Origin: Rudaea cellulosilytica DSM 22992
GTDB taxonomy: Bacteria > Pseudomonadota > Gammaproteobacteria > Xanthomonadales > Rhodanobacteraceae
NCBI RefSeq assembly: GCF_000378125.1
Contig: NZ_KB899241.1
Coordinates: 1,711,652 to 1,775,651, forward strand
DNA length: 64,000 nt
Reading direction: 5' to 3'
The notes under the pieces were generated by a model. The model worked only from the letters and a program-made list of their open reading frames with translations. It was not told the DNA's origin and ran no database searches. Each line of letters opens with the position of its first letter. Position 1 is the first letter of the stretch. The position numbers and the translations under genes are program-made. This document shows, piece after piece, positions 29,969 through 47,791 of the stretch.

Positions 29969-29970
29969 GC

Positions 29971-30627
29971 ATGCACACGTTCCCACGCCAACAGGGGTTC
30001 AGCCTGCTCGAAGTGATGCTGGCCGTGCTGCTGCTCGCGCTGCTGCTGGCGGGCGCCTACAACGGCATCACCGCATCGGTGCGCAGCATGCACTCGGGCG
30101 AGGCGGCGATCGAGCGAATCGACAAATTGCGTACGGTGCAGGAGTTCCTGCGTCACCAGATCTCGCGCATCCTGCCGTTTCCTTATGCACGTTCGAAGGA
30201 CGGCTTGAAGGTGGAAGTTTTCCGCGGCGACGGCAAGTTCATGCGCTTCGTCGCGCCGATGCCGGGCTACCTTTCGCGCGGCGGCGCATATGTGCAAACC
30301 CTGGAGCTCGCTCCGGGCAAGGACGGCATGCAGCTGGTGTTCACGAGCACGCTGCTCAACGGCTTCGATATGGACAAGAACAAGGTCGCCGAGGAATCGA
30401 CCGTGGTCCTGCTCGACCATATCCAGGAGGGCAGTTTCAGTTACCGCGGCCTGAACCAGCAGGGTGAGTTGATGAACTGGAGTCAGGGTTGGAAGGATTC
30501 CAGCACGACGCCGTTGATGGTCGCTCTCGACCTGCGCCTCGCCGCCGGTAACCGAATCGAGTGGCCGCGCATGACGATACCGCTGATGATGGATGTCGGC
30601 GCGCGGCGTTCGGGTCCGGCGGGTTGA
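29971..30627 (+). CDS. gspJ: Minor pseudopilin GspJ
   Basis: This 218-residue protein has the leader MHTFPRQQG and cleavage before FSLLEVMLAVLLLALLLAG. The globular part (RTVQEFLRHQISRILPFPY and onward) fits the GspJ family, part of the tip complex with GspI and GspK. The start lies 2 bp after the gspI stop. Confidence 0.92.
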   Translation: MHTFPRQQGFSLLEVMLAVLLLALLLAGAYNGITASVRSMHSGEAAIERIDKLRTVQEFLRHQISRILPFPYARSKDGLKVEVFRGDGKFMRFVAPMPGYLSRGGAYVQTLELAPGKDGMQLVFTSTLLNGFDMDKNKVAEESTVVLLDHIQEGSFSYRGLNQQGELMNWSQGWKDSSTTPLMVALDLRLAAGNRIEWPRMTIPLMMDVGARRSGPAG

Positions 30628-30631
30628 CGCC

Positions 30632-31609: not shown

Positions 31610-31773
31610 CGCAGGAGCGGGCGCTGCAGTCTGGCTGGGTGGAGCCGCGGGCCCGTTCGTTACCTTTCGTTACGTTTTGAGAACTTATCCTTTCCGGCGC
31701 AGTCTTTAAGCCGCGCCATATTGCGAACCAAACAGATTCACTCAACCGTTTGTTGCCCCGATAGATTTTGCCC

Positions 31774-32988: not shown

Positions 32989-33598
32989 ATCCATGCGCGG
33001 CCAACGGTTTCTTGCCGTGGTTCTGCTGGTCATCGCGTTGCTGCTCGGCTATCTGCTGTTCGTGCATTGGTGGCTGGTGTCGCCTTACCTGACGATGCGC
33101 GATGAGTACTATGATCTGCGCGACCAGCAGTACCATTTCGCCGAGCTGATCCAGAGCAGGCCGCTGATCGAGCAACAACTCAAGGACGTTGCCGGCCTGG
33201 AGCAGGAGAACCAGGCGTTTCTCAACGATGCCGACGCGGCGAGCGCGTTCTCGGATCTTTCCGAGCGGCTCAAGCGCGCGGTCGAGCAGAACCTCGATCC
33301 GAATGCGCGCTGCACGGTCAACGGCATTTCCCCGTCCACCAACCGCGCCCAGGAGGTGTATCTGCGCGTGTCGGCGAACGTCAACATGAACTGCCAGGCG
33401 GAAATGTTTGCGCGGGTGCTGTATACGCTCGAGTCGAGCAACCCCTATCTGTTCGTCGACCGGCTCGTGATATATCGGCAGCAGCAGATGTTCATGCCCG
33501 GCGGCAAGCCGGCACCACCTGGTGCGACCTCGGTCAATGCCCAGTTCGTGCTTTCCGGCTTCCTGCGCCAGTCCGGCGGCGCAAAGGGGGCCAATTGA
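32972..33598 (+). CDS. gspM: Type II secretion protein GspM (XpsM-like)
   Basis: This 208-residue bitopic protein has one membrane helix (about 12-32, FLAVVLLVIALLLGYLLFV), a coiled coil (about 40-90) and a periplasmic ferredoxin-like domain with paired cysteines (ARCTVNG, NMNCQAE). It is the partner of GspL in the inner-membrane platform and belongs to the Xanthomonas-type (GspM subtype b) branch. It overlaps gspL by 17 bp, and its stop overlaps the TTG start of gspN. Confidence 0.88.
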   Translation: MRLLPESMRGQRFLAVVLLVIALLLGYLLFVHWWLVSPYLTMRDEYYDLRDQQYHFAELIQSRPLIEQQLKDVAGLEQENQAFLNDADAASAFSDLSERLKRAVEQNLDPNARCTVNGISPSTNRAQEVYLRVSANVNMNCQAEMFARVLYTLESSNPYLFVDRLVIYRQQQMFMPGGKPAPPGATSVNAQFVLSGFLRQSGGAKGAN

Positions 33599-34356
33599 AC
33601 CTGCGTGCCTCGCGTGGCCTGACCCTGACCCTGGCCGGCATCGCCGCGCTGATGTTGCTGCTGGTCGTGCTGTTCTGGGCGGGCATCGGGCGCGGCTACA
33701 GCTGGTGGACGTTGGATCCGCTCGATCCCGCTACGGGTAAGAAGAAACTGGCCAATGCCCAGTACAGGCTCGGCGCCTGGGACAATTTTGCCGACGTGAA
33801 CGCGCGTCCTTTGTTCAACGAGGACCGCAGGCCGACTCCGCCGATGCCCCCCGACGTGCCAGGTGATGCAAAGCCGATCCCCAAGCTCGAGGTGGTCCTC
33901 GCCGGCGTCATCATTACCTCGAAGGCCCGTCTCGCGATGGTCAAGGAGAAGGGCAAGGAAAAATCGATGACGGTGAAGGAGGGAGGCGCGCTGCCGGGCG
34001 AATTGGCTGCCTGGAGCCTCGCCGAGCTCAAGCCGCGCAGCGCGGTGTTCAAGAATTCCGCCGGCGAGAGCGCAACGGTGGAACTCATCCCGGTCGCGAG
34101 CAGTCAGAAACCCACGCCGCCGCCACCACCGCGTACGCCCAATCCGCCGGTACCGGGCGCGCCCCAGCCCCAACCCGGGCAGGCGCCGCCAACACTGCCC
34201 GGACCGGTGGCGCCGGCCTCTCCCGATGCGGCGGCAGCGGATCTGCAGCAGCGCATCGATGCGCGTCGCCAGCAGATACGCGAGCAGCAACAGCAACAAC
34301 CGCAGCAACCGCAGGCGCCACAGACCGAGCCAGCGCAGCCTGCGCAGCAGCAATAA
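33595..34356 (+). CDS. gspN: GspC-like type II secretion protein (XpsN)
   Basis: This 253-residue protein has an N-terminal membrane helix (about 9-30), a homology-region domain (about 65-165; LFNEDRRPTPP, then KLEVVLAGVIITSKARLAMV) and a Pro/Gln-rich C-terminal tail. The domain and its place between gspM and gspD identify it as XpsN, the GspC equivalent linking the inner-membrane platform to the secretin. No ATG is available. The TTG at 33595 is preceded by the strong Shine-Dalgarno AAGGGGG and overlaps the gspM stop, which settles the start. Confidence 0.88.
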   Translation: MNLRASRGLTLTLAGIAALMLLLVVLFWAGIGRGYSWWTLDPLDPATGKKKLANAQYRLGAWDNFADVNARPLFNEDRRPTPPMPPDVPGDAKPIPKLEVVLAGVIITSKARLAMVKEKGKEKSMTVKEGGALPGELAAWSLAELKPRSAVFKNSAGESATVELIPVASSQKPTPPPPPRTPNPPVPGAPQPQPGQAPPTLPGPVAPASPDAAAADLQQRIDARRQQIREQQQQQPQQPQAPQTEPAQPAQQQ

Positions 34357-34379
34357 TCCAAATTCAAAGGTATAACGCA

Positions 34380-34754
34380 ATGGCAATGAAACCCCTATTT
34401 TTCAGCTTGTGCATTACGCTGGCGCTTTTGCAGATCGGTTGCGGCCGATCCAAGCCGGCGTCGTCCAAGGTGGCGACGGTAGAGGCCCCGACCCAAGAAG
34501 ACGCGCCGCCTCCGCCGCCGGATGCGTTGCCGCCCAAGCCTGCGGCGGCCCCTTTGCCGCCGCAGCCGGCCGTGTCCCGCCCAACAGGGTCTATTCCATT
34601 TGCTCTACTGCCGCGCGGCAAGGATCCCGCTGGTGATGCTGAACATCAGAAATTCCTTGAGGCCAGCGCAAAGCAGGCGGACGCGGTCAAACGCGAGCTG
34701 GAGCAAAGGGCGGCGCAGTTGCAGAATCAGCCTGAAAGCAAAAGCGATCAATGA
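34380..34754 (+). CDS. Small Pro-rich lipoprotein between gspN and gspD
   Basis: This 124-residue predicted lipoprotein has the signal FFSLCITLALLQIGC, with the lipobox Cys at residue 21, a Pro-rich tether (about 40-70) and a charged C-terminal helix (KFLEASAKQADAVKRELEQR). I recognise no family. It sits 23 bp after gspN and 28 bp before gspD, clearly within the secretion operon. In Xanthomonas xps clusters, as I recall, xpsD directly follows xpsN. Size and location suggest a pilotin or accessory factor for the secretin, which is inference only. The starts at 34380 and 34386 are both possible. Confidence 0.8.
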   Translation: MAMKPLFFSLCITLALLQIGCGRSKPASSKVATVEAPTQEDAPPPPPDALPPKPAAAPLPPQPAVSRPTGSIPFALLPRGKDPAGDAEHQKFLEASAKQADAVKRELEQRAAQLQNQPESKSDQ

Positions 34755-34782
34755 AGCGGGTTTCCGTTGTAAGGAGTGCTAA

Positions 34783-37164
34783 GTGAACTTACCTCTTCGT
34801 CCCGTCCTTGGGATCCTGTTCGCGGCGCCCGTATTGTTAGTCGGCTGCGCCAATCTGCCCGGCATCAAACAGGACGCGGTAACCACGGAATTGAGCACGG
34901 AAAAACCCGTGCCGCCGCCGCCGCCGTATCATGTGCCGGACGAGTCCAAGCCGATTACGATCAGGCAGGGCGCCGGCAGCAAGCCGCGCACCGACGCCAC
35001 GTTGACGCCGGGCACCGGGCAGTTGATCAACTACGAAGCAGCCGCGGCACCGGTCTCCAAGGCCACATCCGCCGGCTCGGGTGAGATCACCTTCAACTTC
35101 GAAAACCTGCCGATCCAGGCGGTGGTGCAGAACATCCTGGGCGGGCTGCTCAACGAGAATTACACGGTTTCGCCGACGGTCACCGGCAACGTCACCTTCT
35201 CGAGCTCCAAGCCGGTGGCGATCGACCAGGCGATGCCGATCCTCGAGATGCTGCTGGCGTGGACGAATAACGCTCTCGTGCGCAAGCAGGGCCGCTACGA
35301 GGTCGTCCCGGTCAAGGATGCGATTGCCGGCAGCCTGAGCCCTGGTTTGTACTCGATCAAGGCTGTGCCCGGCTATCAGGTGCGCGTATTCCCGCTCAAG
35401 TACATCTCGCCGAGCGAGATGCAGAAGCTGCTCAAACCCTACGCCAAACCCGATGCGATCGTTTCCGCAGACAACTCGCGCGCGATGATCGTGCTCGCTG
35501 GCACCGCGTTCGAGCTGCAGAGCTACGAGCACACGATCAATGTGTTCGATGTCGATTGGCTCAAGGGCATGTCGGTCGGCGTCGTTGGCCTGCGCAATAT
35601 GGAGGTCGCCAAGCTCATGCCCGAGCTCGACAAGATGTTCGGCGACAAGGCAGAGACGCCGCTCGCCGGCATGTTCCGCTTCATCCCGATGGAGGCGACC
35701 AATTCGATCGTCGTCATCACTCCGCAACCCGACTATCTCAAGCGCGCGCAGGAGTGGATCTACCGCCTCGATATCGGCGTCGGCGAGAACGGCACGCAGC
35801 TTTACGTCTACGACGTGAAGAACGTCAAGTCCGTGGAGTTGTCCGACCACTTGAACGCAATCTTCACCGGCAAGAGCAGCGGCTCGACGAGCAAGAGCAA
35901 CTCAGGCAACACTGCGCCCGGGCTGCGCGGCAGCTCGATCGGCGGCGGTTTGTCGAGCGGCATCGGCAGCGGCGCGATGAGCATCAACAACCAGCAGCGC
36001 TCGACGACGCCGAATCTCTCGACGACCGGAACCGGCACGGGCCTCGCGGGCGGCAACAAGGACACCGACATCCGCATCACCGCGATCGAGGAGAACAACC
36101 AATTGCTCGTGATGGCGACGCCGGGCGAATACGATTCGATCCTTGCTGCGATCCATCGCCTCGACGTGCCACCGCTGCAGGTGCAGATCGAAGCCAAGGT
36201 GCTCGAGGTCACGCTCGGCGGCGACCTCAACTACGGCGTGCAATGGTGGCTGTCCGGATTGAAGAACAAGCAAGGACTGGCCAGCTATACCGGTTCGGAC
36301 TTCGGTACCAAGGGTAGTGGCTTGGGCAACTTCGCCGGAAACCCGAATGATCGCCACCAATTGCAATTGGGCGGCGGCGGCAGTGCCCAGGCAACGAATG
36401 GTCCAGGAATTTTCTATTCGTTCTTGAACAAGGATTTCCAGGTCGCCATCAACGCGTTGCAGCAGGACACGACGACTAAAACGCTATCCGCCCCATCAAT
36501 GGTCGTGCTGAACAATCAGCAAGCAAGCATCACCGTAGGCACCCAGGTGCCGATCGTGACGACTTCGCTGTATGGCTTGGGCACCACGAGCGGCACCTCC
36601 AGCCTCAGCGGCATAGGGACGAACACGGGTATCGGTTCGACTTCCTATGTCAGCACCGGCTCGACTCTTCAAATTACCCCGCGCGTGAATCCGGGCGGTC
36701 TGGTCTATATGGACGTCGCTCAGGAACTCACCGTACCGGGATCGACCACGGCTACCCAGCCGAATCCCGCGATCTCGCAGCGCACGTTGCAAACGCAGAT
36801 CGCCGTGCAAAGCGGACAGACCGTGCTGCTTGGGGGCTTGATCGGCGAGAACAATTCCAAAGGCAATACGGGAGTGCCTCTGCTCAGCAGCATTCCGTGG
36901 GTTGGGAATCTGTTCAAGAGCACGACCAATCATCGTGACCGCACCGAAATCATCGTGTTGATCACTCCCACGGTGATCTACAACGCCGAAGATGCGAAAG
37001 CCGTCACCCAGGAATACCAGGACAAGTTCGAATCGCTGGCACCGCTGCGCGCCAAGAAGAAGATGGAAAAAGAAACGGGCGAAGTGCCGGGCGACGCGAA
37101 AGGCGCCGTCGTCACTCCCGTGCCTTCCGCAGCGCCTGCACCTCTCGAAAAATCCAAGCAGTGA
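34783..37164 (+). CDS. gspD: Type II secretion secretin GspD
   Basis: This 793-residue outer-membrane channel begins as a lipoprotein (signal to LLVGC, Cys at about 22). A Pro-rich tether and the periplasmic N-domains follow (ITFNFENLPIQAVVQNILGG at about 102; then N1-N3 repeats, with a Ser/Gly-rich loop at about 365-425). The secretin core (about 540-760) includes TTKTLSAPSMVVLNNQQASI and VNPGGLVYMDVAQE. The start is a GTG at 34783, fixed by AAGGAG 7 bases upstream. This Shine-Dalgarno is the strongest in the cluster and may set secretin level. The C-terminal Lys/Glu-rich tail after the core lacks an obvious S-domain. Confidence 0.97.
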   Translation: MNLPLRPVLGILFAAPVLLVGCANLPGIKQDAVTTELSTEKPVPPPPPYHVPDESKPITIRQGAGSKPRTDATLTPGTGQLINYEAAAAPVSKATSAGSGEITFNFENLPIQAVVQNILGGLLNENYTVSPTVTGNVTFSSSKPVAIDQAMPILEMLLAWTNNALVRKQGRYEVVPVKDAIAGSLSPGLYSIKAVPGYQVRVFPLKYISPSEMQKLLKPYAKPDAIVSADNSRAMIVLAGTAFELQSYEHTINVFDVDWLKGMSVGVVGLRNMEVAKLMPELDKMFGDKAETPLAGMFRFIPMEATNSIVVITPQPDYLKRAQEWIYRLDIGVGENGTQLYVYDVKNVKSVELSDHLNAIFTGKSSGSTSKSNSGNTAPGLRGSSIGGGLSSGIGSGAMSINNQQRSTTPNLSTTGTGTGLAGGNKDTDIRITAIEENNQLLVMATPGEYDSILAAIHRLDVPPLQVQIEAKVLEVTLGGDLNYGVQWWLSGLKNKQGLASYTGSDFGTKGSGLGNFAGNPNDRHQLQLGGGGSAQATNGPGIFYSFLNKDFQVAINALQQDTTTKTLSAPSMVVLNNQQASITVGTQVPIVTTSLYGLGTTSGTSSLSGIGTNTGIGSTSYVSTGSTLQITPRVNPGGLVYMDVAQELTVPGSTTATQPNPAISQRTLQTQIAVQSGQTVLLGGLIGENNSKGNTGVPLLSSIPWVGNLFKSTTNHRDRTEIIVLITPTVIYNAEDAKAVTQEYQDKFESLAPLRAKKKMEKETGEVPGDAKGAVVTPVPSAAPAPLEKSKQ

Positions 37165-37166
37165 GT

Positions 37167-37709
37167 ATGGACATGACCAGAATCAAGACTCTTGTTCTCG
37201 CCGGCGTTATCGGCATGTCGTTGCTGCTGGCCGCGGGCTGCAGCAGCAAGGATCCGGCGGAACTCGTTCGGCAGAGGGCGGTCGAGCGCTGGGATCTGCT
37301 TGCCGGCAAGCACGCGGTGAAAGCCTACGACTATCTCAGTCCAGGCTATCGCTCCACGCATACACTGGAGCAGTACGTAGCTTTCGTCGCTACCGCACGC
37401 ATAAGCTGGAAATCCGCAAAGGTCGATTCGGTGCAGTGCGAGACTGATGTATGCACTGCAAAGCTCGTCGTCGTGGCGATTGTTCCCGGGGCCGTCATGC
37501 AGCGGCCTAGCGACATGGAATATCCGTCCCCCATCGTCGAGAAATGGGTGCGCAGCGAAGGGCAGTGGTATTTCCTGCCGGAATCGAAAATCGAGCCAAA
37601 AGACATAGCTGGGCAAGCGGCGGCGGCACCTGCTCCTGCCGCGGACGCCCCCGCGAACGCCGCTCCTCCTGCTGCAGCCGATGACAGCGCCAAAAATAGT
37701 CACAATTAG
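37167..37709 (+). CDS. Lipoprotein of unknown function after gspD
   Basis: This 180-residue predicted lipoprotein has the signal LVLAGVIGMSLLLAAGC with lipobox LAAGC. A compact domain of about 110 residues follows (AVERWDLLAGKHAVKAYDYL, YPSPIVEKWVRSEGQWYFLPE), reminiscent of NTF2-like folds, and the tail is Ala/Pro-rich. There are two further cysteines (QCETDVC). It starts 2 bp after the gspD stop and so belongs to the secretion operon. It could help the secretin or a client; I know no characterised homologue. Confidence 0.82.
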   Translation: MDMTRIKTLVLAGVIGMSLLLAAGCSSKDPAELVRQRAVERWDLLAGKHAVKAYDYLSPGYRSTHTLEQYVAFVATARISWKSAKVDSVQCETDVCTAKLVVVAIVPGAVMQRPSDMEYPSPIVEKWVRSEGQWYFLPESKIEPKDIAGQAAAAPAPAADAPANAAPPAAADDSAKNSHN

Positions 37710-37983: not shown

Positions 37984-39480
37984 ATGAAAAGAACCAGTCT
38001 TACGACTGCCGTCATCGCCGGTATCGCCGGTGTGGCTGGCATTTCCAACATGGCCAGCGCCGTCTATCTGAACAATGACGGTCTCGGTCAGGTCCTCATC
38101 TACCCGTATTACACCGTCAACGGCGGCAACAACACGCTGCTGACCGTGGTCAATACGACCAATCAAGGCAAGGCCGTCAAGGTCCGCTTCCTTGAAGCCT
38201 ACGACAGCCGCGAAGTCCTCGACTTCAACCTGTACCTCTCGCCGCAGGACGTCTGGACGGCAGCCGTTGTGCCGGTTGGCGGCGGTGCGGGCGTGTTCAC
38301 CAACGACAACAGCTGCACGGTGCCGGCGCTCCCGACGAGCCTGGCCACGGCTCAGCCGTTCCTGACCTATGCCTACGACGGCACGGGTGATACGGCGGCC
38401 GACGGCGGCCCGACCGGTGTTTCGCGTACGCTCGAAGGTTATGTCGAGCTGATCGAAATGGGTACGGTGACCAATGCGTCGCAGGATACCCTGAAGTCGA
38501 TCACCCACTCGGCTGGTGTTCCGCTCGACTGCACTCAGGTTGCGGACGCGTGGAACGGCGGTTATTGGGACATCACCGCTGGCGGCGATGTGACGATCGA
38601 TTTGTCTGCGACCTCCGGTGGCCTGTTCGGCTCCGGCGCGATCATCAACGTCAACCAGGGCACGATTGCCGGCTATAACGCCGATGCGATCGATCAGTTC
38701 TACTCGGATACGTTCTCGCACCACACCGCTCCGGGTTCGCTGTCGCCGAACATCTCCAGCGCCACCTCGCACGTGAGCTATGTGTTTGCGCCGAGCCCGA
38801 CCACGACCTCGCCGACGCTGATCACCACGAGCTACACCTCGGGTGTCGACGCCGTGAGCTCGCTGTTCATGGCCGACAAGATCTTCAACGAGTACTGGAC
38901 CGCTGGCGGTACCGCGGCCAACTCCGAGTGGGTCATCACGTTCCCGACCAAGCGCTTCTACGTCGATTCCGCCAGCGCCGCTGCCGGCCATCTGCAGCCG
39001 TTCGACAAGCTGTTCTCGAAGGGCGTTTCGTGCGCGCCGATCGGCATTGGCATCTATGACCGCGAAGAGCGCACCACGTCGGGCACGATCGGCTTCTCGC
39101 CGGCCAAGAGCCAGCAGGGTGCCGCGCTGTGCTACGAGGCACAGGTGGTCACGTTCAACCAGCCGGGTATTGGCACGGCGGCCAGCGCAGTGCTGGGTTC
39201 CAACCTGACGGCGAACATTGCTCCGCCGGCCGGTGCGAACAACGGTTGGGCCGTGATCGATCTGTACGGCAAGAGCGCAGCGAACCACGTCCTGCCGGCG
39301 GCCTACACCGACGGTACTGTCGGTGCCGCCAACGTGTTCCGCGGCCTGCCGGTCACGGGCTTCTGGGTTGCCAACCTGGTCAACGGCAACGTCGGTGGCG
39401 TGCTGTCGAACTATTCGGCGCTGTTCCGTCACAAGCTGCATCGCACCTGCGCCCAGGCCTCGGGTTCGGCCTGCTCGTAA
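37984..39480 (+). CDS. Secreted/surface protein of unknown function
   Basis: This 498-residue exported protein has a signal peptide ending near ASA (residue 24). The mature part opens VYLNNDGLGQVLIYPYYTVN and is rich in Gly, Thr and Ser, low in charge, with about six cysteines including two near the C-terminus. From memory, similar proteins occur widely in Xanthomonadales, unannotated. No catalytic motif is visible. AAGGAG stands 7 bases before the ATG, and a strong terminator follows the stop, so it is a well-expressed single-gene unit just after the type II secretion genes. It is a plausible secretion client or outer-surface component. Confidence 0.85.
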   Translation: MKRTSLTTAVIAGIAGVAGISNMASAVYLNNDGLGQVLIYPYYTVNGGNNTLLTVVNTTNQGKAVKVRFLEAYDSREVLDFNLYLSPQDVWTAAVVPVGGGAGVFTNDNSCTVPALPTSLATAQPFLTYAYDGTGDTAADGGPTGVSRTLEGYVELIEMGTVTNASQDTLKSITHSAGVPLDCTQVADAWNGGYWDITAGGDVTIDLSATSGGLFGSGAIINVNQGTIAGYNADAIDQFYSDTFSHHTAPGSLSPNISSATSHVSYVFAPSPTTTSPTLITTSYTSGVDAVSSLFMADKIFNEYWTAGGTAANSEWVITFPTKRFYVDSASAAAGHLQPFDKLFSKGVSCAPIGIGIYDREERTTSGTIGFSPAKSQQGAALCYEAQVVTFNQPGIGTAASAVLGSNLTANIAPPAGANNGWAVIDLYGKSAANHVLPAAYTDGTVGAANVFRGLPVTGFWVANLVNGNVGGVLSNYSALFRHKLHRTCAQASGSACS

Positions 39481-39550: not shown

Positions 39551-39647
39551 GGGGGTCGTAAAAAAATGAAGGATTGGCGGTGCCGTGCAGAACCGCGGTC
39601 CTGATACGTTGTCGATATCCAGCCTTGCAGAAATCGGAGTACATAAC

Positions 39648-40712
39648 ATGCTGAACAAACTGTTCTTGGCCAGCGCAGCAATGCTGCTGGTCTCCTCGGC
39701 GTTCGCCCAAACCCCTGCCACCACAACCACGACTTACAGCACCCCGCCGACCATCGTCGCGGGAGGTTGCAACATCACCGGCGCCACCGTCTTCCATTAC
39801 GATCCGTCCACGAATACCATTACCCTCGACAATGCTACGGACAGCTGCAGCACCAGCCCCCCCGGCAACCAGACAGCCAGCGTGTCCGTTTCCATCAGTC
39901 CGACGAGCTATACGCTTGGCTCAAGTGCGGCCCCGCCGGTCGTCAGCGTGACCTACAATACCCCGGCGGCCGCGGTGACCTGTACGCTCAATCCGACCAA
40001 CGGATTCTCGGTCACCTCGGCCGGCACCATCACCGGAACCGGTACGTTCGCGCTCAGTGCGCCTACAACGCAAGGAACTTTCACCTTCACGCCGACGTGT
40101 ACGACCAATACGAGCGGCTACAACCCCGCGGTCTCGGTGTCGGGATCCACGTCGCTGACGGTCAACCCCGCCCCGGTTAACACCAGTGGTTGTGATGCCA
40201 CTCAGATGAGTTCGTCGCTGAACGGAATCACGCTTAAGCGCCAATGCAGCGGCCAGGTCAATATCATGCCGAGCACTATTGCCTACAACAATGCGCTGAC
40301 CGATCTCGGCACGGTGTTGGGCAACTCGTCGTTCCCGGCCTACAAGTACGCCGGCTACTCGCCAACGTTCACGATCCAGTCGGGTTATTACGTCGCGTTG
40401 GCATTCAAGCCCACGACGACCGGCGCGTTCCAGCTCGTGGCCAATACCAGCTATGGCGACGGCGGCATGATCTCGCTGAGCACGGTGCCCGGAGCGCTCA
40501 CCCGAGGCAGCACCGGCGCGATCTGCGTGCAGGGCGCCAATGCGTCGAACAGCTTGTACGTCAGTACTACGTCGTCGACCTGTCAGGTGACGGCGGGCAC
40601 GACCTACTACATCAATTTCGCCGATACGAACATCAACGGCGATGCGCTCTGCTACAACGGCTCGGCCGGCAGCTGCAACACCTCGCAGGTGTCGTACACG
40701 CTGTACAGGTAA
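39648..40712 (+). CDS. Secreted Thr/Ser-rich protein of unknown function
   Basis: This 354-residue protein has a signal peptide (FLASAAMLLVSSAFAQ). A Thr/Ser-rich N-terminal half carries immunoglobulin-like repeat character (VSVSISPTSYTLGSSAAPPV, LNPTNGFSVTSAGTITGTG). The C-terminal region has regularly spaced cysteines and ends SCNTSQVSYTLYR. The C-terminal half resembles beta-sandwich surface modules but I cannot name it. GGAG lies 9 bases before the ATG. It stands alone between two terminators, near the secretion locus, and may be another exported client. No PEP-CTERM or IPTL sorting tail is present. Confidence 0.82.
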   Translation: MLNKLFLASAAMLLVSSAFAQTPATTTTTYSTPPTIVAGGCNITGATVFHYDPSTNTITLDNATDSCSTSPPGNQTASVSVSISPTSYTLGSSAAPPVVSVTYNTPAAAVTCTLNPTNGFSVTSAGTITGTGTFALSAPTTQGTFTFTPTCTTNTSGYNPAVSVSGSTSLTVNPAPVNTSGCDATQMSSSLNGITLKRQCSGQVNIMPSTIAYNNALTDLGTVLGNSSFPAYKYAGYSPTFTIQSGYYVALAFKPTTTGAFQLVANTSYGDGGMISLSTVPGALTRGSTGAICVQGANASNSLYVSTTSSTCQVTAGTTYYINFADTNINGDALCYNGSAGSCNTSQVSYTLYR

Positions 40713-40830: not shown

Positions 40831-41772
40831 ATGACGCTAAAGAAAATTTTCGGCACGATTCTGGCGCTGGCCGGCATCGCGGGTACGGCATTCGCGGGCG
40901 ACGATGTGGAGCTGGTCAAGCAAGGCGGCACCGCGGTGACGTTGGCGGACGTCGATGGTTTCCTGCAGCAGATGCCCGAGAATCAGCGAGAAACCTATCT
41001 CAGCAGCCCCGATCGTGTGCAGCAGATGCTGATCGGCATCCTGCGCGACAAGCAATTGGCGAACCAGGCCATTGCGATGAAGCTCGACCAGGATCCGCAC
41101 GCGCAGGCCGAAATCGCTTTCGCTCGCGACCGGATTTTGTCGCGCAGACGGATGAATGCCTACGAGGCCTCGCTTCAGATCCCTTCGATGGAAACCGCGG
41201 CAAAGGAACAATACCTGGCGCATAAGGCCGACTACGTCGTTCCCGAAGTCGTCGACGTGCAGCACGTGCTGATTTCCGAACAAGGCCGCAACGACGCGGA
41301 CGCAAAAGCGCTGGCGGAAAAAGTTCGCGCGGAAGCGGTGGCCGATCCCGCGGCCTTCGACCAGCTGGTGAAGAAATATTCGGAGGATCCTTCGAAGGCA
41401 AGCAATCTTGGGCAGATTCGCGATGCGACGTCGTCTAAACTGGTGGGCGAGTTCAGCGCCGCTGCGAAAAAGCTGACGAAAGTCGATGAGATTTCGCCGG
41501 TGGTCAAGACCGCATACGGCTACCACGTGCTCAAGTTGATTCAGCGCACACCAGCGAAACCGCAGGAGTTCGGTGCGGTCAAGGATCAGTTGATCGCCAA
41601 GCTCAAGCAGAACTATGTCGCCGAACAACGCAAGGCGTTTCTTGCCAAACTGGACAACGGGGCGTCGAGCGTCAATCCACAAGGCATGGAGGCCATGCGC
41701 GAACGCTACAAGCTCGGAGAACAGCCTGACATCGGCGCTGCAACCAAGGCGGCGGAGAAAGGTTCTAAGTAA
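40831..41772 (+). CDS. Periplasmic parvulin-type peptidyl-prolyl isomerase
   Basis: This 313-residue protein has a signal peptide (ILALAGIAGTAFA), an N-terminal SurA-like helical part (about 25-125) and a PpiC/parvulin domain (about 135-235; VQHVLISEQGR, QLVKKYSEDPSKASNLGQI, VVKTAYGYHVLKLIQR). It should assist folding of exported or outer-membrane proteins. It is shorter than SurA, with one parvulin domain, and closer to PpiC/PrsA-like foldases. AAGGGA lies just before the ATG. Position next to secretion genes suggests it serves secreted clients. Confidence 0.9.
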   Translation: MTLKKIFGTILALAGIAGTAFAGDDVELVKQGGTAVTLADVDGFLQQMPENQRETYLSSPDRVQQMLIGILRDKQLANQAIAMKLDQDPHAQAEIAFARDRILSRRRMNAYEASLQIPSMETAAKEQYLAHKADYVVPEVVDVQHVLISEQGRNDADAKALAEKVRAEAVADPAAFDQLVKKYSEDPSKASNLGQIRDATSSKLVGEFSAAAKKLTKVDEISPVVKTAYGYHVLKLIQRTPAKPQEFGAVKDQLIAKLKQNYVAEQRKAFLAKLDNGASSVNPQGMEAMRERYKLGEQPDIGAATKAAEKGSK

Positions 41773-41971: not shown

Positions 41972-42781
41972 ATGACACTCGATGAGCTCCAACCGCGTAG
42001 AGTGGGGAAATTGCGGGCCATCTCGCTCCACTTCATTCGCCGCGAGTTGCACAACCGTTATCTGGGCAGCATCAGCGGTGGCGTGTGGGCATTGCTGCAA
42101 CCGCTGATCCAGCTGGTCATCTATGGTTTCGTCTGGACCTACGTATTCAACATGCGCTTGCCGGGAGCGGGCGCCACACCGGTGGCGATCGTGCCGTTTC
42201 TCGCGCTCGGCGTGTGGCCATGGAACGCCTTCAGCGAAGCCGTGCTGCGTTCGGCCACGGTGATCCAGGACAATGCGGGACTGATCGGCAAAGTCGCCTT
42301 CCCGCGGGGCGCGCTCGTCTTCGCGGCGAGCAGCGCGAGCTTTCTCCTGCACGGCGTCGGTTTCATCGTCGTCGTGATAGCGAGCGAATTGCTCGGCGTG
42401 CCTTTGCAGCTCGTGCATCTGCCGTTGGCCCTGCTCGCGTTCACGCTGTTGTTTGTGCTGGCGCTCGGCTTTGGCTATCTATTCGCCGCAGTGCAGGTGT
42501 TTGTGCGTGATACCTCGCAGGTGCTCGCACAACTGCTGCCGTTGATGATGTTCACCGCGCCCGTGCTGTATTCGCGCGATTATCTGCCCGAGCGATTCCG
42601 CGCCTGGCTCGGCTGGAATCCTTTCACGTTCTACCCCGAGTATCTGCGTGCCGAACTGCTCGGCATCGGCACGGTCGGCATCGGCGCGCAGCTGGCTGCG
42701 CTCGTGCTGGCGTTCGCAGTCCTCGCACTAGGCTACGCGGTGTTCCGCCGACTGGATGCGCGCTTCGAGGATTTCCTGTGA
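41972..42781 (+). CDS. wzm: ABC-2 permease of polysaccharide exporter (Wzm)
   Basis: This 269-residue inner-membrane protein has six predicted helices and is of the ABC-2 type (LHFIRRELHNRYLGSISGGV at the N-terminus, then WALLQPLIQLVIYGFVWTYV). Together with Wzt it moves a lipid-linked glycan, such as O-antigen or capsule, from cytoplasm to periplasm. The gene starts the surface-glycan operon and overlaps wzt by 4 bp (GTGA). Confidence 0.93.
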   Translation: MTLDELQPRRVGKLRAISLHFIRRELHNRYLGSISGGVWALLQPLIQLVIYGFVWTYVFNMRLPGAGATPVAIVPFLALGVWPWNAFSEAVLRSATVIQDNAGLIGKVAFPRGALVFAASSASFLLHGVGFIVVVIASELLGVPLQLVHLPLALLAFTLLFVLALGFGYLFAAVQVFVRDTSQVLAQLLPLMMFTAPVLYSRDYLPERFRAWLGWNPFTFYPEYLRAELLGIGTVGIGAQLAALVLAFAVLALGYAVFRRLDARFEDFL

Positions 42782-44055
42782 ACACGGTGCGGAACGAGGC
42801 CACGGTCGCGACAGGCGGCGCAGACCTGCTCGCCGTGGCGCGCGATCTCGGCAAATCCTATCCAAAGGTGTTCCGCCGCCGCGATCGCCTGCGCGCGCTG
42901 GGCAAATTGCTCGTCGGCATCGACGACCTCGACTCGGTGCCCGTGTTGCGCGGAGTCAATCTCGACGTCCTGCGCGGCGAGTCGCTCGGCCTGATCGGCG
43001 AGAACGGCGCCGGCAAGTCGACGCTGCTCAAGCTGCTCACTGGCGTGCTGACGCCGACGACGGGCAGTGTCGAGGTGCGCGGCCGGGTCGGCGCGCTGCT
43101 CGAACTCGGCGCCGGTTTCCATCCTGAATATACCGGTCGCGACAATGTCGCGATGTCGGCGGCGCTGTATGGCCTCGCTGCCGATGAGCTGCGCGAGAAA
43201 CTGCCGCAGATCATCGAATTCGCCGACATCGGCCGCTACGTCGACGAACCGGTGAAGCACTATTCCTCGGGCATGGTCGTGCGCCTCGGTTTCGCGATCG
43301 TCGCCGCACTCAGGCCGGACCTGCTTATCACCGACGAAGTACTCGCCGTCGGCGACGAGTCGTTCCAGAAGAAATGCGTGCGCTGGATGGAGGATTATCT
43401 CGCCCATGGCGGCACGCTGATTCTCGTCTCGCACAGCATGTACCACATCCAGAAGCTGTGCCGGCACGCGCTGTGGCTGCGCCAGGGCGAAGTGGCGGCC
43501 GCCGGCGACGTGTTCGAGGTGACCCAGGCCTACCTCGCCTACCACGAACGCAAGTCGGTGGCCGCGCCGGATCGCGGCATCATCGCCGCGCAGGGCGTCG
43601 AATTCCACCTGCTTGGCCTGGCCGCCAACGATCTGGAGCAGGAAACGCCGGTGTTCCTCAACCAGGGCGACACGTTGCGCCTGACCGCGCGCGTGCGCTC
43701 GCGTGACGGGCGTCCACCGACTGTGGCGTTCGGCATCGCACGCGTGGACGGCACGGCCGTGTACGGCGTCAGCAGCGAGATGGACGGCATCGCACCGCAG
43801 CGTCTCGATGCGCACACTTGGGTCGCCGAAATCGTGTTCGACGATCTTACCCTGCTGCCGGGAGCCTACACGGTCAAGGCGCATCCGATGGATACCGAGG
43901 GCGTGCGCCTGTTCGACACGATCGAGCGCGGTATCGTCGTGCGCGGCAGTACGCGCGAATTTGGCCTGGTCCGGCTGCATCACCGCTGGAACGATGCGCC
44001 CGCACAAGTCATGGCGCAAAATGGCGCCGATTCAGCTTCTTCGAGTTCGTCATGA
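42778..44055 (+). CDS. wzt: ABC ATPase of polysaccharide exporter (Wzt)
   Basis: This 425-residue protein has Walker A GENGAGKST (about residue 79), the signature HYSSGMVVRLGF, Walker B LLITDEVLAVGDE and the H-loop LVSHSMYH. The C-terminal region (about 260-410) is a beta-sandwich like the Wzt carbohydrate-binding domain that recognises the modified glycan end. Its presence suggests a terminal cap, such as a methyl group, is read before export, in line with the methyltransferase gene next door. The start is a GTG overlapping the wzm stop; the end overlaps the methyltransferase start (ATGA). Confidence 0.95.
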   Translation: MNTVRNEATVATGGADLLAVARDLGKSYPKVFRRRDRLRALGKLLVGIDDLDSVPVLRGVNLDVLRGESLGLIGENGAGKSTLLKLLTGVLTPTTGSVEVRGRVGALLELGAGFHPEYTGRDNVAMSAALYGLAADELREKLPQIIEFADIGRYVDEPVKHYSSGMVVRLGFAIVAALRPDLLITDEVLAVGDESFQKKCVRWMEDYLAHGGTLILVSHSMYHIQKLCRHALWLRQGEVAAAGDVFEVTQAYLAYHERKSVAAPDRGIIAAQGVEFHLLGLAANDLEQETPVFLNQGDTLRLTARVRSRDGRPPTVAFGIARVDGTAVYGVSSEMDGIAPQRLDAHTWVAEIVFDDLTLLPGAYTVKAHPMDTEGVRLFDTIERGIVVRGSTREFGLVRLHHRWNDAPAQVMAQNGADSASSSSS

Positions 44056-44945
44056 CGACTTCGCCCTCTGCGCCGGCCTTGGAATTTACCGGCGAGCGCT
44101 TCACCCCCGAGTGCGTGCGCGAGATCTGGTACGAGCACTGGGCACGCTACGCCTTTGCTCTTGATTTCGCGCGCGACAAGCGCGTGCTCGACGCAGCCTG
44201 TGGCGAGGGTTTCGGCAGCGCCTTGCTTGCGCGTAGCGCGCGCTCGGTAATCGGCCTGGACGTGTCCGCGCAGGCGGTCGCACACGCGCAGGCGCGCTAT
44301 GGCGGCGCCGCGAACCTGCGCTATGTCCAGGGCGACTGCACGCAGCTCGATCTGCCTGCCGCAAGCGTCGACCTCATCGTTTCGATCGAGACCCTTGAGC
44401 ACGTCGCGGCTCAAGAGGCGATGGTTGCCGGCTTCGCGCGCGTCCTCGGTGAGGACGGCATTTTCATCGTCTCCTCACCTGACAAGCGCACCTACAGCGA
44501 CGTCACCGGTTTCCGCAACGAATTTCACGTACGCGAGCTGTATCGCGACGAATTGCTGGCTCTGCTCAAGTCGCATTTTCCCGAAGTACGCCTGTACGGA
44601 CAGAAGCTGCTGTTCCAGTCCGCGATCTGGGCGCTGGACGATGGCGAATCGCCGACTTGCAAAATCGCCGCGAAGACCGCCGAAGCGGCCGCCGACGGCT
44701 CGACTTTGGTAAAATCCGGCCTGCAATACGACCCGCTGTATTTCATCGCGGTGTGCTCGCGCCGGCCGCTGGGCGAGTTGCCGCGGCTGGCGTTGTTTGG
44801 CGACCGGGCCGAATCGGTGTACACGCACTACAACCATGAAGTGCGCAAGAACATCGCCGCCGGCGGACGCATAGCCGAACTCGAAGCGCAGGTCGAAATG
44901 CTGCGCGCCGAGGTCGAGCGCTTGCAGACTGCGGCGAAATCGTAA
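44052..44945 (+). CDS. SAM-dependent methyltransferase
   Basis: This 297-residue class I methyltransferase has motif I VLDAACGEGFGSALLA (about 39-54), motif II around IGLDVSAQAV and motif IV near DLIVSIETLEHV. The C-terminal about 40 residues form a coiled coil (AELEAQVEMLRAEVERL). It may methylate a sugar or the reducing or non-reducing end of the exported glycan, as WbdD-type enzymes do, and the coiled coil would suit chain-length control; both are inference. It overlaps wzt by 4 bp. Confidence 0.9.
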   Translation: MTTSPSAPALEFTGERFTPECVREIWYEHWARYAFALDFARDKRVLDAACGEGFGSALLARSARSVIGLDVSAQAVAHAQARYGGAANLRYVQGDCTQLDLPAASVDLIVSIETLEHVAAQEAMVAGFARVLGEDGIFIVSSPDKRTYSDVTGFRNEFHVRELYRDELLALLKSHFPEVRLYGQKLLFQSAIWALDDGESPTCKIAAKTAEAAADGSTLVKSGLQYDPLYFIAVCSRRPLGELPRLALFGDRAESVYTHYNHEVRKNIAAGGRIAELEAQVEMLRAEVERLQTAAKS

Positions 44946-44999
44946 ACTCGCTTGCGCGGCGATTGCGCCGCAGGCATCTCCTTTCTTTCAGGCAATCTC

Positions 45000-46856
45000 T
45001 TGAGCTACCAATTCAACTACACCCTGCCGCCGCTGAATGCCGCGGCGCCGAAGGCCGATCCGAACGCGCCGACCTATGCGTCCGAGGACGGCATGGTCGC
45101 CTCACTGTCGAGCCAGGAATGCATTTTCCAGATCCGGCGTACGGGCGAGCCGCACGTCATGACCTTCCAGGTCCTGCAGGCGATGGACCAGTGCCGCGAG
45201 TTCCGCACGCTCGACGAGCATGTCGCCCGCATTCAGTCGACCCAACCCGCACTCGCCAGCAAGCGCGACGACGTGAAGCGCGTGCTAGAAAGTCTCGTCC
45301 AGCGCAAGTTGCTCATCTCCGATGCCAGCTTCGTCGAGCGCCTCGGCACGTCGTCCGCGATCGCGCAGGCGCCGATGCGCGCCGTATTCATCCGCGCCTG
45401 CGACCGCCCGCAGCAACTCGCCCACCTGTTGACCTCGCTTGCCGAGTACGAGCGCCGCTTCCGCGCCGGCCGCCGCTACGTGCTGCTCGACGATTCGGTA
45501 CTGCAGGCGAGCATCAATGAGCAGCGCGATCTGCTGCGTGAATTCGCGCGCACGACCGGCTGCAAGGTGCACTACATCGGCCACGCCGAACGCACCAAGA
45601 TCGTCGACAAGCTGGCGCGCGAATTCCCGCAGGCGAAGGCGACGATCCAGAACCTGCTCGTGCGCGATAAGAGCGCAGGTACGCAGCGCTTCGGCGGCGG
45701 CCGCGGCTGGAACATGGCCTTGCTGCTTTCGGCCGGCTCGCGCTTCGCGCTGCTCGACGACGACCTGCGCCTGAATCTCAAGCGACCGCCGTTCGCGCGC
45801 GTCGGACTCGACCCGAACCCGTCGCCGCCGATGGAAGCGGCATTCCTGGCCAATATGGAGGAAGCGTTCGGCTACGGCGAGGACGTCGATCAGGATCCGT
45901 TCGCGCTGCATCTCGATGCCTGCGGGCAGATGCTCGGCGCGCTGACGCGTACGGCGTATCCGCTGTCGCGCCAGGCGTTGCGCGGAATGAACCTGTCGCG
46001 GCTGGAAATCCTGTCCGCGCCGTCGCGCGTCGTCGCCACCCAGCTCGGCACCTACGGCAGCGCTCGCACCGAGAACGGCTTGTGGCTGTATCGGCTCGAG
46101 GGCCGCAGTCGCGAGGAACTGTGGCGCGAGCGTGCAAGCTACCTGCGCAACACCGAGGCGCAACACATCTGGTTCGGCGTCGCCCAAGCGTTGCCGAAGG
46201 AAATCACCGGGTTTACCCCGTTCACATTCGACAACAGCCTGTTGCTGCCGTGCACGAATCCGGTCGGTCGCGGCGAGGACAGCCTGTGGAGTGCGCTGAC
46301 CCGCTACGCGCATCCCGACGCGGTCGTGCTCGAACTGCCCGAAGCGATCGCGCATGTGCAGGAAAGCCAGCGCAACCGCTCCGAGATCACGCGTAGCGCA
46401 TTTGCTCCGCGCGTCAACCTGTTCCTGCGCGACTATATCCAGCGGCAATTCGGCCTGTACAAGGCAGCCGATCCCGCGCAGCGGCTTTCGTTCTTTGCCG
46501 ACGTGCTACGCGATCTTGCCGGCGCGAGCGAGGCCGAGCGCGTGTCGAATCTGCGCGAATACCTGAGCTACGCGCGTGCCGATCTGATCGATCGCCTGCA
46601 GCACCAGATCGAAGCGGCGACCGAGGCGCCGATCTACTGGCAGGCCGATGCGCGCGCGATCGTGGAAAGCAACGCCAAGGCGCTTCTTGCGAAGGTTCCG
46701 CCGCGGCTGGGCGACTGGCCCGAAGACATCGACGATGCCGGTTGCGCCAAGGCGCTCGTCGGCGAGCTCGACGGCATGGCCGATGCGCTCGAGCATTGGC
46801 CGGCGCTGTGGCGTCACGCAGCAGAGCAGGGCGAGAAGCTGCTCGGCGCGCTGTAG
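45000..46856 (+). CDS. PqqD-like domain fused to glycosyltransferase-like domain
   Basis: This 618-residue cytoplasmic protein belongs to no family I can name. Residues about 25-110 look like a PqqD/RRE-type winged helix (LSSQECIFQIRR, then FQVLQAMDQCREFRTLDEHV and RVLESLVQRKLLIS). Residues about 125-300 look like a GT-A fold: FIRACDRPQQLAHLLTSLAE, GRGWNMALLLSAG and the acidic motif FALLDDDLRL, a likely metal/nucleotide-sugar site. The remaining 300 residues are helical. The start is a TTG at 45000 giving MSYQFNYTLPP; the ribosome site is weak, so this is uncertain. It lies between the methyltransferase and a GT2 gene in the glycan operon. Confidence 0.75.
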   Translation: MSYQFNYTLPPLNAAAPKADPNAPTYASEDGMVASLSSQECIFQIRRTGEPHVMTFQVLQAMDQCREFRTLDEHVARIQSTQPALASKRDDVKRVLESLVQRKLLISDASFVERLGTSSAIAQAPMRAVFIRACDRPQQLAHLLTSLAEYERRFRAGRRYVLLDDSVLQASINEQRDLLREFARTTGCKVHYIGHAERTKIVDKLAREFPQAKATIQNLLVRDKSAGTQRFGGGRGWNMALLLSAGSRFALLDDDLRLNLKRPPFARVGLDPNPSPPMEAAFLANMEEAFGYGEDVDQDPFALHLDACGQMLGALTRTAYPLSRQALRGMNLSRLEILSAPSRVVATQLGTYGSARTENGLWLYRLEGRSREELWRERASYLRNTEAQHIWFGVAQALPKEITGFTPFTFDNSLLLPCTNPVGRGEDSLWSALTRYAHPDAVVLELPEAIAHVQESQRNRSEITRSAFAPRVNLFLRDYIQRQFGLYKAADPAQRLSFFADVLRDLAGASEAERVSNLREYLSYARADLIDRLQHQIEAATEAPIYWQADARAIVESNAKALLAKVPPRLGDWPEDIDDAGCAKALVGELDGMADALEHWPALWRHAAEQGEKLLGAL

Positions 46857-46867
46857 CCGTTGCGCAC

Positions 46868-47791
46868 GTGAGCGATTCCCGCGAGCGATCGTCCGCCGAG
46901 CAGGGTTTCACCAGCGTCGTCATCGTCACTGCCGACAGTGGCGCCGGAGTCGGCGACAACATCGAGCGCGTGCTGCGCAGCACGGCACCGGTCGAGATCA
47001 TCGTCGTTGACAACGACTCGCGTGACGGCAGCATCGAGCAGCTCGCGCTGCGCTTCGCGCAGAACGCGTCCGTGCGCATCCTGCGCAACAAGGAAAACCT
47101 GGGCTTCGGTACCGCCTGCAACCGCGGCGCGACGATCGCGCGCGGCGAAACGTTGCTGCTGCTCAACCCGGATTGCCTGGTCGAAAGCGACACGATCGCG
47201 CGACTGCGCGCCGTGCTCCGCGCGGATCCGCGCATCGGCCTGCTCGGCGTGCTGCAGGCCGGCATCGACGGGAGCATCGATCCAGCTTCGCGTCGTCGCG
47301 ACCCGCTGCTGCGGCGCGCATTGATGAGCGCGTCGGGGCTGGCGCATTTCGCCCCGCGCTGGCCGGTGTTCGCCGGTGTGGACATGCCGGCGGCTGCGAA
47401 CGAGCCGGCGGTCGAGCCGGTCGATGCGGTGTCCGGCGCGCTGATGCTGCTGCCTCGCAAGGCGTTCGATCGGATCGGCGGATTCGACGAAGGCTATTTC
47501 CTCCATTGCGAAGATCTCGATCTCTGCCGCCGAGTACGCGACGCGGGTTGGCATGTCGCCTGCGCGAACGAGGTGCGCGTGGTTCACGGCAAGGGCGGTT
47601 CGAGCCGGCATCGCCCGGTGTTCGTGGCTTGGCACAAGCGCCGCGGCATGTGGCGCTGGTTCAGCAAATTCGATCCCGCCGCGCGCAATCCCGCGCTGCG
47701 CGTTTTCGTCCGTTGCGCGATCTGGGCCGCGTTCGCGGCGAGCGTGCCGCTATTGCTTCTGCGCCGTTGCCGCGTCACGCACACGATGTAG
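46868..47791 (+). CDS. GT2 family glycosyltransferase
   Basis: This 307-residue inverting glycosyltransferase of family 2 resembles rhamnosyltransferases. The nucleotide-sugar domain carries VVIVTADSG, IIVVDNDSRDGS and the metal site LLLLNPDCLVE. The acceptor region holds VSGALMLLPRKAFDRIGGFD, then GYFLHCEDLDLCRRVR. A hydrophobic C-terminal helix could attach it to the membrane. It starts with GTG 11 bp after the preceding stop. Its last 42 bp overlap, in antisense, the end of the convergent GT2-TPR gene. It probably adds a sugar to the glycan exported by Wzm/Wzt. Confidence 0.9.
   Translation: MSDSRERSSAEQGFTSVVIVTADSGAGVGDNIERVLRSTAPVEIIVVDNDSRDGSIEQLALRFAQNASVRILRNKENLGFGTACNRGATIARGETLLLLNPDCLVESDTIARLRAVLRADPRIGLLGVLQAGIDGSIDPASRRRDPLLRRALMSASGLAHFAPRWPVFAGVDMPAAANEPAVEPVDAVSGALMLLPRKAFDRIGGFDEGYFLHCEDLDLCRRVRDAGWHVACANEVRVVHGKGGSSRHRPVFVAWHKRRGMWRWFSKFDPAARNPALRVFVRCAIWAAFAASVPLLLLRRCRVTHTM

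Follow-up and report, generated by a model that had tools for sequence, protein, structure and literature searches.

A putative fusion of a peptide-binding winged helix with a GT75-like enzyme in a probable S-layer biogenesis locus of Rudaea cellulosilytica

We analysed the gene at positions 45000..46856 (+) of a 64,000-nucleotide stretch of the Rudaea cellulosilytica DSM 22992 genome (contig NZ_KB899241.1); the whole stretch is called the window, and the gene and its product are called focal. From a TTG start that is backed by homologues, the gene encodes 618 amino acids (aa). The reading we prefer, at a little under an even chance, is that a peptide-binding winged helix of the RRE type (RiPP recognition element, RiPP being a ribosomally synthesized and post-translationally modified peptide) is fused to an enzyme resembling glycosyltransferase (GT) family GT75, and that the fusion belongs to a probable S-layer biogenesis locus. 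The enzyme most likely prepares an unusual, perhaps furanose, sugar for a glycan exported by Wzm/Wzt, and its RRE would dock it to a partner, either a protein or a peptide; this suggests that synthesis of the sugar anchor of the S-layer may involve recognition of a protein. An earlier note, made from the letters of the window, had suspected a PqqD/RRE-like winged helix in front of a glycosyltransferase-like domain, and its interpretation as a whole is partly supported. Published work is cited by PubMed Central identifier.

Results

A conserved gene without a sequence family

The open frame spans 44952..46856 (+) and would count 634 aa from its first TTG. The TTG at 45000 is favoured by the homologues, whose own starts fall at or near the same position and whose N-termini at that start read M-E-F-x-x-x-F-G or L-N-Y-Q-x-N-Y. 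Since the gene is present in 35 of 60 relatives (the source genome counted among them) and at 76 loci in a collection of genome contigs, it is a genuine conserved gene and not a chance frame. The named loci come from the genera Rudaea, Dokdonella, Tahibacter, Pseudofulvimonas and Marinicella. The gene is rare outside its order: 122 of 250 genomes drawn from Lysobacterales matched it (109 matches were judged strong by reading), a class-level draw gave matches in 4 of 320 further genomes (E 1e-10), one of them across just ~95 positions, and the four matches in 398 genomes of a phylum-level draw were the source genome, two genomes of the same family and one partial match. A phage or plasmid origin was rejected, with zero matches in both the phage collection and the plasmid collection.

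Scans of the 618 aa protein returned nothing at E<=0.1 from Pfam and no match from NCBIfam, and the best entry in a sequence search of the PDB, a ribosomal protein at E 0.11, was dismissed as a chance match, as was LamB_YcsF (E 0.17 in the first Pfam scan, under its cut-off). The earlier description of the C-terminal part as lacking a recognisable family thus stands for the sequence and falls for the fold, which is GT75-like (see below). Homologue counts refer to 75 distinct sequences, that is, 85 collected sequences minus 10 near-duplicates (the same gene in two collections), and per-residue conservation to an alignment of 58 sequences (A3).

The N-terminal domain resembles RREs

An AlphaFold2 model of the whole focal protein, built from 58 sequences (mean predicted local distance difference test, pLDDT, 92.2; predicted template modelling score, pTM, 0.90), shows in order a disordered tail (residues 1-13), a small strand-helix domain (26-107), a GT-A part, a mixed core and a long helical C-terminus. 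Matches to a single domain can be masked in large models, and for this reason the N-terminal domain was also folded and searched separately. Residues 14-123 (AlphaFold2, 58 sequences; mean pLDDT 87.9, pTM 0.75) were predicted to form a three-stranded sheet followed by three helices, a winged helix. Its 22 best Foldseek matches comprise 21 RRE-containing proteins or PqqD (E 0.015-0.6): ranks 1-19 and 21-22 are held by TbiB1, heterocyclases, ThcOx, TigE, MadB, MibB, a sactipeptide enzyme, lasso synthetase B1 and, at rank 22, PqqD, the exception at rank 20 being a histone methyltransferase, and the list is mixed after rank 22. None of the matches reaches E <= 0.001, and the single E-values are each weak. 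In VIA-align, the domain scored Z 10.1 with TigE, 9.8 with MibB, 8.7 with MccB, 8.6 with NisB, 7.3 with TbiB1 and 5.0 with PqqD; a few non-RRE entries (PKMT2, MINA53) reach Z 5-6. Together, the predicted fold and the Foldseek and VIA-align matches support the assignment of residues 26-107 (45075..45320, +) to an RRE/PqqD-type winged helix, which the earlier note had read from the residue pattern.

The PqqD profile PF05402 did not match the focal protein. We treat this as an operational test only, because PF05402 is reported to overlook many RREs (PMC7470986). The sole PF05402 match in the source genome at E<=0.1 (G000:C3:271844-272029, L139) sits among frames that we read by eye as pqqB, pqqC and pqqE.

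Ahead of the winged helix stands the tail (M)SYQFNYT (45000..45023, +), with the motif aromatic-x-x-[NDTS]-aromatic ahead of a variable linker; residues 1-13 have a pLDDT under 50 and are disordered in the model. The loose tail pattern is found in 60 of the 75 distinct homologues, and three of the 15 misses end short of the tail. The tail alternates aromatic or hydrophobic residues with polar ones and resembles a strand-forming peptide.

A single predicted GT75-like unit spans the middle and the C-terminus

When the model was re-aligned by VIA-align to Foldseek's 1000 best chains, it matched rice UAM2 and MtdL with Z 19.7-20.7 over 312-317 residues and a model range of 122-612. GT75 entries fill the top seven rows (rice UAM2, Z 20.7, 317 residues, root-mean-square deviation 4.2; six MtdL entries, Z 19.7-20.2, 312-316 residues), and the next entry drops to Z 13.6. 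The alignment extends to focal residue 609-612 and takes in the core and C-terminal helix regions, which in MtdL have no meaningful similarity to the compared GT2 enzymes (PMC9937993). These model comparisons indicate that residues 122-618 (45363..46853, +) form one GT75-like unit, consisting of a GT-A Rossmann part, a core and C-terminal helices. The GT-A-like middle domain of the earlier note is borne out by these structural matches, and its separate 300-residue part is replaced by the continuation of the same unit. An ordinary GT2 fusion was set aside as a fold assignment, as it is not the closest fold by VIA-align; its functional version stays a rival (see below). GT75 enzymes interconvert nucleoside diphosphate (NDP)-pyranose and NDP-furanose using a divalent metal and an autoglycosylated arginine, and the characterised bacterial members as of 2023 are MtdL and Hyg20 only (PMC9937993).

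Residues known from GT75 enzymes have candidate counterparts in the focal protein. The acidic LLDDDLRL motif pointed out in the earlier note is present and contains the putative metal-binding DxD, D253-D254-D255 (45756..45764, +), which follows strand 247-253 (D253 in 57 of 58 and D255 in 54 of 58 sequences of A3). Hhalign pairs R328 (45981..45983, +) with the autoglycosylated arginine (OsUAM1 R158, MtdL R159). Motif order and short-region hhalign suggest that R424-G-E-D427 (46269..46280, +) is the counterpart of MtdL R257-x-x-D260, with D427 present in 58/58, and H452 (46353..46355, +; 58/58), which ends strand 441-452, would correspond to the Mn-binding MtdL H287. Full-length hhalign pairs DDD/DDN, LRGMNLSRLE/VRGYPFSLRE and GLWL/GLWL. 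In sub-region runs FDNSLLLP/FNREVLGP and GRGED with the R-x-x-D stretch are paired, non-significantly (score 12.0 vs a null of 9.6, standard deviation (s.d.) 1.8, maximum 14.4, n=100).

All five GT75-type positions are kept in 47 of the 75 distinct homologues, and R328 by itself in 49. Among the 42 homologues with at least 40% identity, DxD, D427 and H452 are kept in 42/42, R328 in 41/42 and R424 in 42/42. The corresponding numbers among the 33 homologues below 40% identity are 24 for DxD, D427 and H452 together, 8 for R328 and 10 for R424, with Lys at position 424 in 11 more.

The gene keeps its place in a probable S-layer locus

Across Lysobacterales the gene keeps its position in this order: type II secretion system (T2SS), secreted ~500 aa protein, PpiC, Wzm/Wzt, methyltransferase, focal gene, GT2. 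In the window, the type II secretion operon gspE..gspD occupies 25584..37164 (+); eight of its ten frames tested matched Pfam models (T2SSE, T2SSF, T2SSG, GspH, N_methyl, T2SSK, PilN and T2SSM_b) and two had no match, and a Secretin match was obtained in a separate scan. Its gene order is presumably that of the xps operon. A small lipoprotein-like gene (37161..37709, +; cluster c5, in 37 of 45 stretches including the window) separates gspD from the gene of an NpdA/S-layer-type secreted protein of 498 aa, 'LNNDGLGQVLIYPYYT' (37984..39480, +). A Rudaea-type secreted repeat/Ig-like protein (39645..40712, +), read by eye and with no Pfam match, comes next, and many other loci carry a different secreted protein (c6) in its slot. 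It is followed by a PpiC-type prolyl isomerase (40831..41772, +; Rotamase 4.3e-19), the ATP-binding cassette (ABC)-2 permease Wzm (41972..42781, +; ABC2_membrane 1.4e-13), the ABC ATPase Wzt (42778..44055, +; ABC_tran 2.8e-20, Wzt_C 1.2e-8) and an S-adenosylmethionine (SAM)-dependent methyltransferase (44049..44945, +; Methyltransf_11 1.1e-20). The C-terminus of the methyltransferase (44868-44945) is a leucine heptad-like stretch, recognised by eye, which we take to recall chain-terminating methyltransferases such as WbdD. Downstream, a GT2 glycosyltransferase (46853..47791, +; Glycos_transf_2 1.9e-18) overlaps the end of the focal gene.

A Wzm permease together with a Wzt that carries a C-terminal Wzt_C domain marks an ABC-transporter-dependent glycan locus. 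The earlier grouping of the gene with Wzm/Wzt and a methyltransferase is confirmed by Pfam matches and synteny; the O-antigen operon envisaged there is too narrow a frame, as the T2SS and the NpdA-type protein lie upstream in the same locus. The tandem GT2 gene with TPR repeats (47750-49732, minus strand), whose co-occurrence the earlier note had wished to see checked, was matched beside the locus in no more than a subset of the Rudaea-type relatives and a single Dokdonella; the one GT2 directly downstream is found in nearly all loci (counts below).

Synteny was counted in the 76 contig-collection loci, using only those with enough sequence on the relevant side. The downstream GT2 is present in 67 of 68 loci and, upstream, the methyltransferase in 61/67, Wzt in 56/58, Wzm in 52/55, PpiC in 48/55 and the NpdA-type protein in 47/48. 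A broken gene or contig (L094, L116) explains part of the misses, and four of the six methyltransferase misses belong to one group of close relatives (L108, L110, L114, L115). Six homologues (L032, L033, L034, L036, L037 and L038) have few or no matches to the operon genes nearby; in most of them the tail pattern is absent and R328 or R424 is changed. In two genomes from other orders (L155, L156) the order lipoprotein - NpdA-type protein - PpiC - Wzm - Wzt is preserved, which suggests that glycan export may be an old part of the NpdA locus.

NpdA is an S-layer protein of 52 kDa that has no known domains and a gsp cluster upstream; the list of species with NpdA orthologues includes R. cellulosilytica, Tahibacter and Dokdonella, and R. 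cellulosilytica appears in the table of cultures examined, an S-layer being visible in every one of 16 additional cultures except one (PMC10765051). The product of 37984-39480 is a secreted ~50 kDa-type protein (secretion was judged by eye) downstream of a gsp cluster with one small gene between. It is probably NpdA, as judged by context, length and taxon and not by alignment to Paracidovorax citrulli NpdA (WP_011797163), and the locus is probably an NpdA S-layer biogenesis locus. A search of the PDB with the NpdA-type profile gave a best E of 1.8.

In the NpdA-type protein, the signal peptide (MKRTSLTTAVIAGIAGVAGI..., 37984-38061 of the window) is far better conserved than those of PpiC and the lipoprotein: in 24 loci, mean pairwise identity is 68% for the first 26 residues of the NpdA-type protein, 18% for the first 25 of PpiC and 26% for the first 25 of the lipoprotein. 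Residues 27-100 of the NpdA-type protein are 70% identical in these loci, residues 100-498 fall to 40%, and the signal peptide is by eye equally conserved in operons without the focal gene. Because the adjoining residues are equally conserved, and because the conservation persists without the focal gene, we do not take it as evidence for RRE binding, and the signal peptide is weakened as a candidate RRE target. Extra NpdA-type copies elsewhere in the genomes match in many cases only from residue 5-27 on and in some from residue 1.

A single variant in which a carrier domain stands where the RRE would be

One genome of the class encodes a 1287 aa protein (L140:4462-8322) that combines FkbH (TIGR01686, 3.2e-86) and a phosphopantetheine carrier domain (PF00550, 1e-17) with a remote relative of the GT75-like part behind them (22% identity over residues 85-562). 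There is no room for an RRE between the carrier domain and the GT75-like part, and a GT2 gene lies upstream of the fusion. This one example, in which a carrier domain replaces the peptide-binding domain, suggests that this type of enzyme may work beside a tethered substrate. The variant was found in 0 of 249 genomes elsewhere and on no plasmid, an empty result of little weight.

Discussion

A possible mechanism

Prediction and comparison supply both folds, the operon context and the finding that metal and base residues are conserved; from these we infer the rest of the mechanism. The GT75-like unit would bind an NDP-sugar with Mn2+ through the DxD and H452, and R328 and D427 would serve the conversion of NDP-pyranose to NDP-furanose or a transient arginine-sugar adduct. 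The product would feed the neighbouring GT2, the methyltransferase would cap the glycan and Wzm/Wzt would export the capped glycan, which might be the surface anchor of the T2SS-secreted NpdA-type layer. The RRE could dock the enzyme by accepting a strand-forming peptide, for which its own or a sister subunit's N-terminal tail and a partner protein of the locus are candidates.

Points against and rival explanations

Several points weigh against this reading. At the level of fold, no GT75 entry is among the 50 Foldseek rows listed and the family surfaced only in the VIA re-alignment, and rice UAM2, the top structural match, is reported to be without mutase or autoglycosylation activity (PMC9937993). 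The mapping of D253/D255, R328, R424, D427 and H452 to MtdL D109/D111, R159, R257, D260 and H287 draws on motif, spacing and hhalign rather than on superposition, and full-length hhalign loses register with it after GLWL. Sequence kinship to GT75 is not significant. Pfam RGP (PF03214) has no match in the source genome at E<=0.01, and hhalign to GT75 reaches E of only 0.0079-0.023, with best local stretches that vary between runs. In favour of kinship, the profile-profile score to five RGP/UAM sequences, 26.6, exceeds a reversed-alignment control (15.2) and 60 column shuffles (mean 15.0, s.d. 2.1, maximum 20.5), column shuffles being an easy null, and the core-only score of 26.1 is scarcely above the best of 60 shuffles, 26.0. 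As a significant sequence match is lacking, we name the protein GT75-like and refrain from assigning it to GT75 itself. R328 is gone in 25 of the 33 distant homologues and R424 in 23 (Lys in 11); because both arginines are lost in most of them, the mutase chemistry cannot be shared by all members of the family. Among the genes of the operon we identified none for a nucleotide sugar.

Operons with the same neighbours also exist without the focal gene. Co-occurrence, by contrast, speaks for our reading: the 250 genomes of the order contain the gene and the NpdA-type protein in 98 cases, the gene only in 11 (nine of these genomes are under 90% complete), the NpdA-type protein only in 34 and neither in 107, where 13 weak or partial gene matches, picked by eye, are treated as absent and shared ancestry is ignored. 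Fourteen stretches around the NpdA-type gene were examined from genomes that lack a full-length focal gene (11) or have a copy elsewhere (3). In 11 of the 14 the methyltransferase is directly followed by GT2; in L127 and L128 neither of the two was matched downstream of Wzt, and L121 has room for the focal gene and a weak match.

Last among the points against, nine of the 75 distinct homologues are changed in a DxD Asp, the base or the His: L025, L028, L029, L031 and L035, and L108, L110, L114 and L115, the last four by D-to-N in the DxD only. All nine adjoin operon genes and five (L108, L110, L114, L115, L025) keep the tail pattern. They may be pseudoenzymes, and since they have lost catalytic-site residues and yet remain beside operon genes, a binding or scaffold role may be selected by itself. 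Carried further, this becomes the proposal that the GT75-like unit is a non-catalytic scaffold, in some lineages or generally, with RRE and tail under selection; plant GT75 likewise has inactive members, e.g. OsUAM2 and AtRGP5 (PMC9937993). We regard it as very improbable, the catalytic set being intact in 42/42 members of the focal protein's clade.

The focal protein could also be an ordinary GT-A glycosyltransferase whose RRE-like domain is an assembly module only, tying it to the other enzymes much as WbdD holds WbdA in O9a synthesis, with neither peptide recognition nor a mutase step. Weak matches of 18 of the 58 family members to Glycos_transf_2 (best 4.2e-5) and of 3 of 30 to the mycofactocin glycosyltransferase model (best 0.0023) speak for this, as does the loss of R328 in most of the distant members. 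The galactofuranosyltransferase GlfT2, moreover, tops the Foldseek search of the whole model and is its only match with E <= 0.001 (E 3.1e-4, low TM score), and we assume that E426-D427 and N238 of the focal protein are also GT2-like. We consider an ordinary glycosyltransferase somewhat unlikely, as the GT75 entries stand ~6 Z units above all other listed entries and cover the core and helix regions, and as the GT75-type Arg positions are nearly invariant in the protein's own clade.

A second catalytic alternative is that, in the cytoplasm, the RRE recognises the NpdA-type precursor or that of the second secreted protein, which then receives a sugar from the GT75-like unit before Sec/T2SS export. 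In its favour are the fusion itself, the co-occurrence with the NpdA-type protein, the conservation of the signal peptide of that protein, unusual for such a peptide, and the remote relative in which FkbH and a carrier domain take the place of the RRE; GT75 enzymes already glycosylate their own arginine (PMC9937993), and RRE partners are known for Sec-exported precursors, the bufferins (PMC12452194). Against it, the signal peptide may just share in the conservation of residues 27-100, by eye it stays conserved in operons that lack the focal gene, the NpdA-type protein occurs without the focal gene in 34 of 132 genomes, and no modified residue or acceptor motif was found. We judge such an RRE-guided protein glycosyltransferase unlikely. 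Its bolder form, in which an RRE was recruited to S-layer biogenesis to present a protein precursor or peptide carrier to the GT75-like enzyme for cytoplasmic glycosylation (e.g. of arginine) before export, so that the S-layer protein or its anchor would be RiPP-like, seems to us quite improbable.

The RRE fold and the nearby ABC exporter and methyltransferase might finally be read as signs of RiPP maturation, with the enzyme modifying a small precursor peptide whose gene lies at the locus. The search for small peptide genes near homologues, which had been proposed along with the original observation, turned up no precursor peptide gene near the focal gene: the maps of 45 stretches contain no same-strand open reading frame cluster of at least 60 aa inside the operon beyond the named genes, and stretches of at least 20 aa in the operon gaps of the window matched distant relatives only as ends of known genes or other frames of those genes. 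No radical SAM, protease or cyclodehydratase model was matched by the operon proteins tested, and Wzm/Wzt with Wzt_C is a glycan exporter. A RiPP cluster is disfavoured by the missing precursor gene, and we hold a maturation enzyme of this kind to be extremely doubtful. An enzyme that prepares a sugar for the exported glycan, docked through its RRE, is the reading that we retain.

Comparison with known systems

The focal protein shares with the GT75 mutases (plant UAM/RGP, bacterial MtdL and Hyg20) the predicted three-part fold over 312-317 residues and, in the same order, DxD, a candidate RG-type arginine, R-x-x-D and a metal-site His. It differs from them in having no significant sequence match, in its extra N-terminal RRE and tail, in its length (618 aa), in a key arginine that is not universal in its family and in the position of its gene in a glycan-export operon. 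We assume a likeness to the WbdD/Wzt type of capped O-antigen export, which rests on the methyltransferase and the C-terminal Wzt_C domain of Wzt; unlike WbdD, the methyltransferase of this locus has 298 aa and only a short heptad-like tail.

Fusions of RREs with glycosyltransferases in possible RiPP clusters are known as bioinformatic finds (PMC7470986, RRE-Finder), and a structure-based survey of RREs reports fusions to PF00535 (PMC12710340). The focal protein resembles these in joining an RRE fold to a glycosyltransferase-type enzyme; it is set apart by its GT75-like partner, the absence of a precursor gene from the searches described above and the S-layer-type locus. What that locus has in common with the published NpdA locus is that a T2SS gsp cluster immediately precedes the gene of a secreted protein of ~500 aa in which no domain is known; in the main text of PMC10765051, as distinct from its figures and supplements, 'glycosyl' and 'methyltransferase' are absent and 'ABC transporter' occurs in a reference title only. 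Both RRE-glycosyltransferase fusions and the linkage of T2SS and NpdA are thus already in print, and in the text of the papers available to us, supplements apart, we found none describing an RRE fused to a GT75-like enzyme or assigning such a fusion to an S-layer locus. The focal gene would link RiPP-type peptide-recognition domains, GT75-type metal-dependent sugar mutases and NpdA-type S-layers, a link that we did not find in that literature. If the mutase is active, furanose-containing S-layer anchors become testable; if a protein is modified, RRE-guided enzymes would count S-layer proteins among their substrates. The presence or absence of the gene among operons of otherwise the same layout offers a natural comparison. 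Although its S-layer gene is a different one (vapA, likened by layout and not by sequence) and no RRE fusion is described in the parts of the source available, the A-layer/wbsalmo cluster of Aeromonas salmonicida, in which T2SS genes and the gene of a 49 kDa S-layer protein both sit between those for Wzm and Wzt and lipopolysaccharide tethers the layer, is the nearest parallel in layout to the focal locus (PMC4483657).

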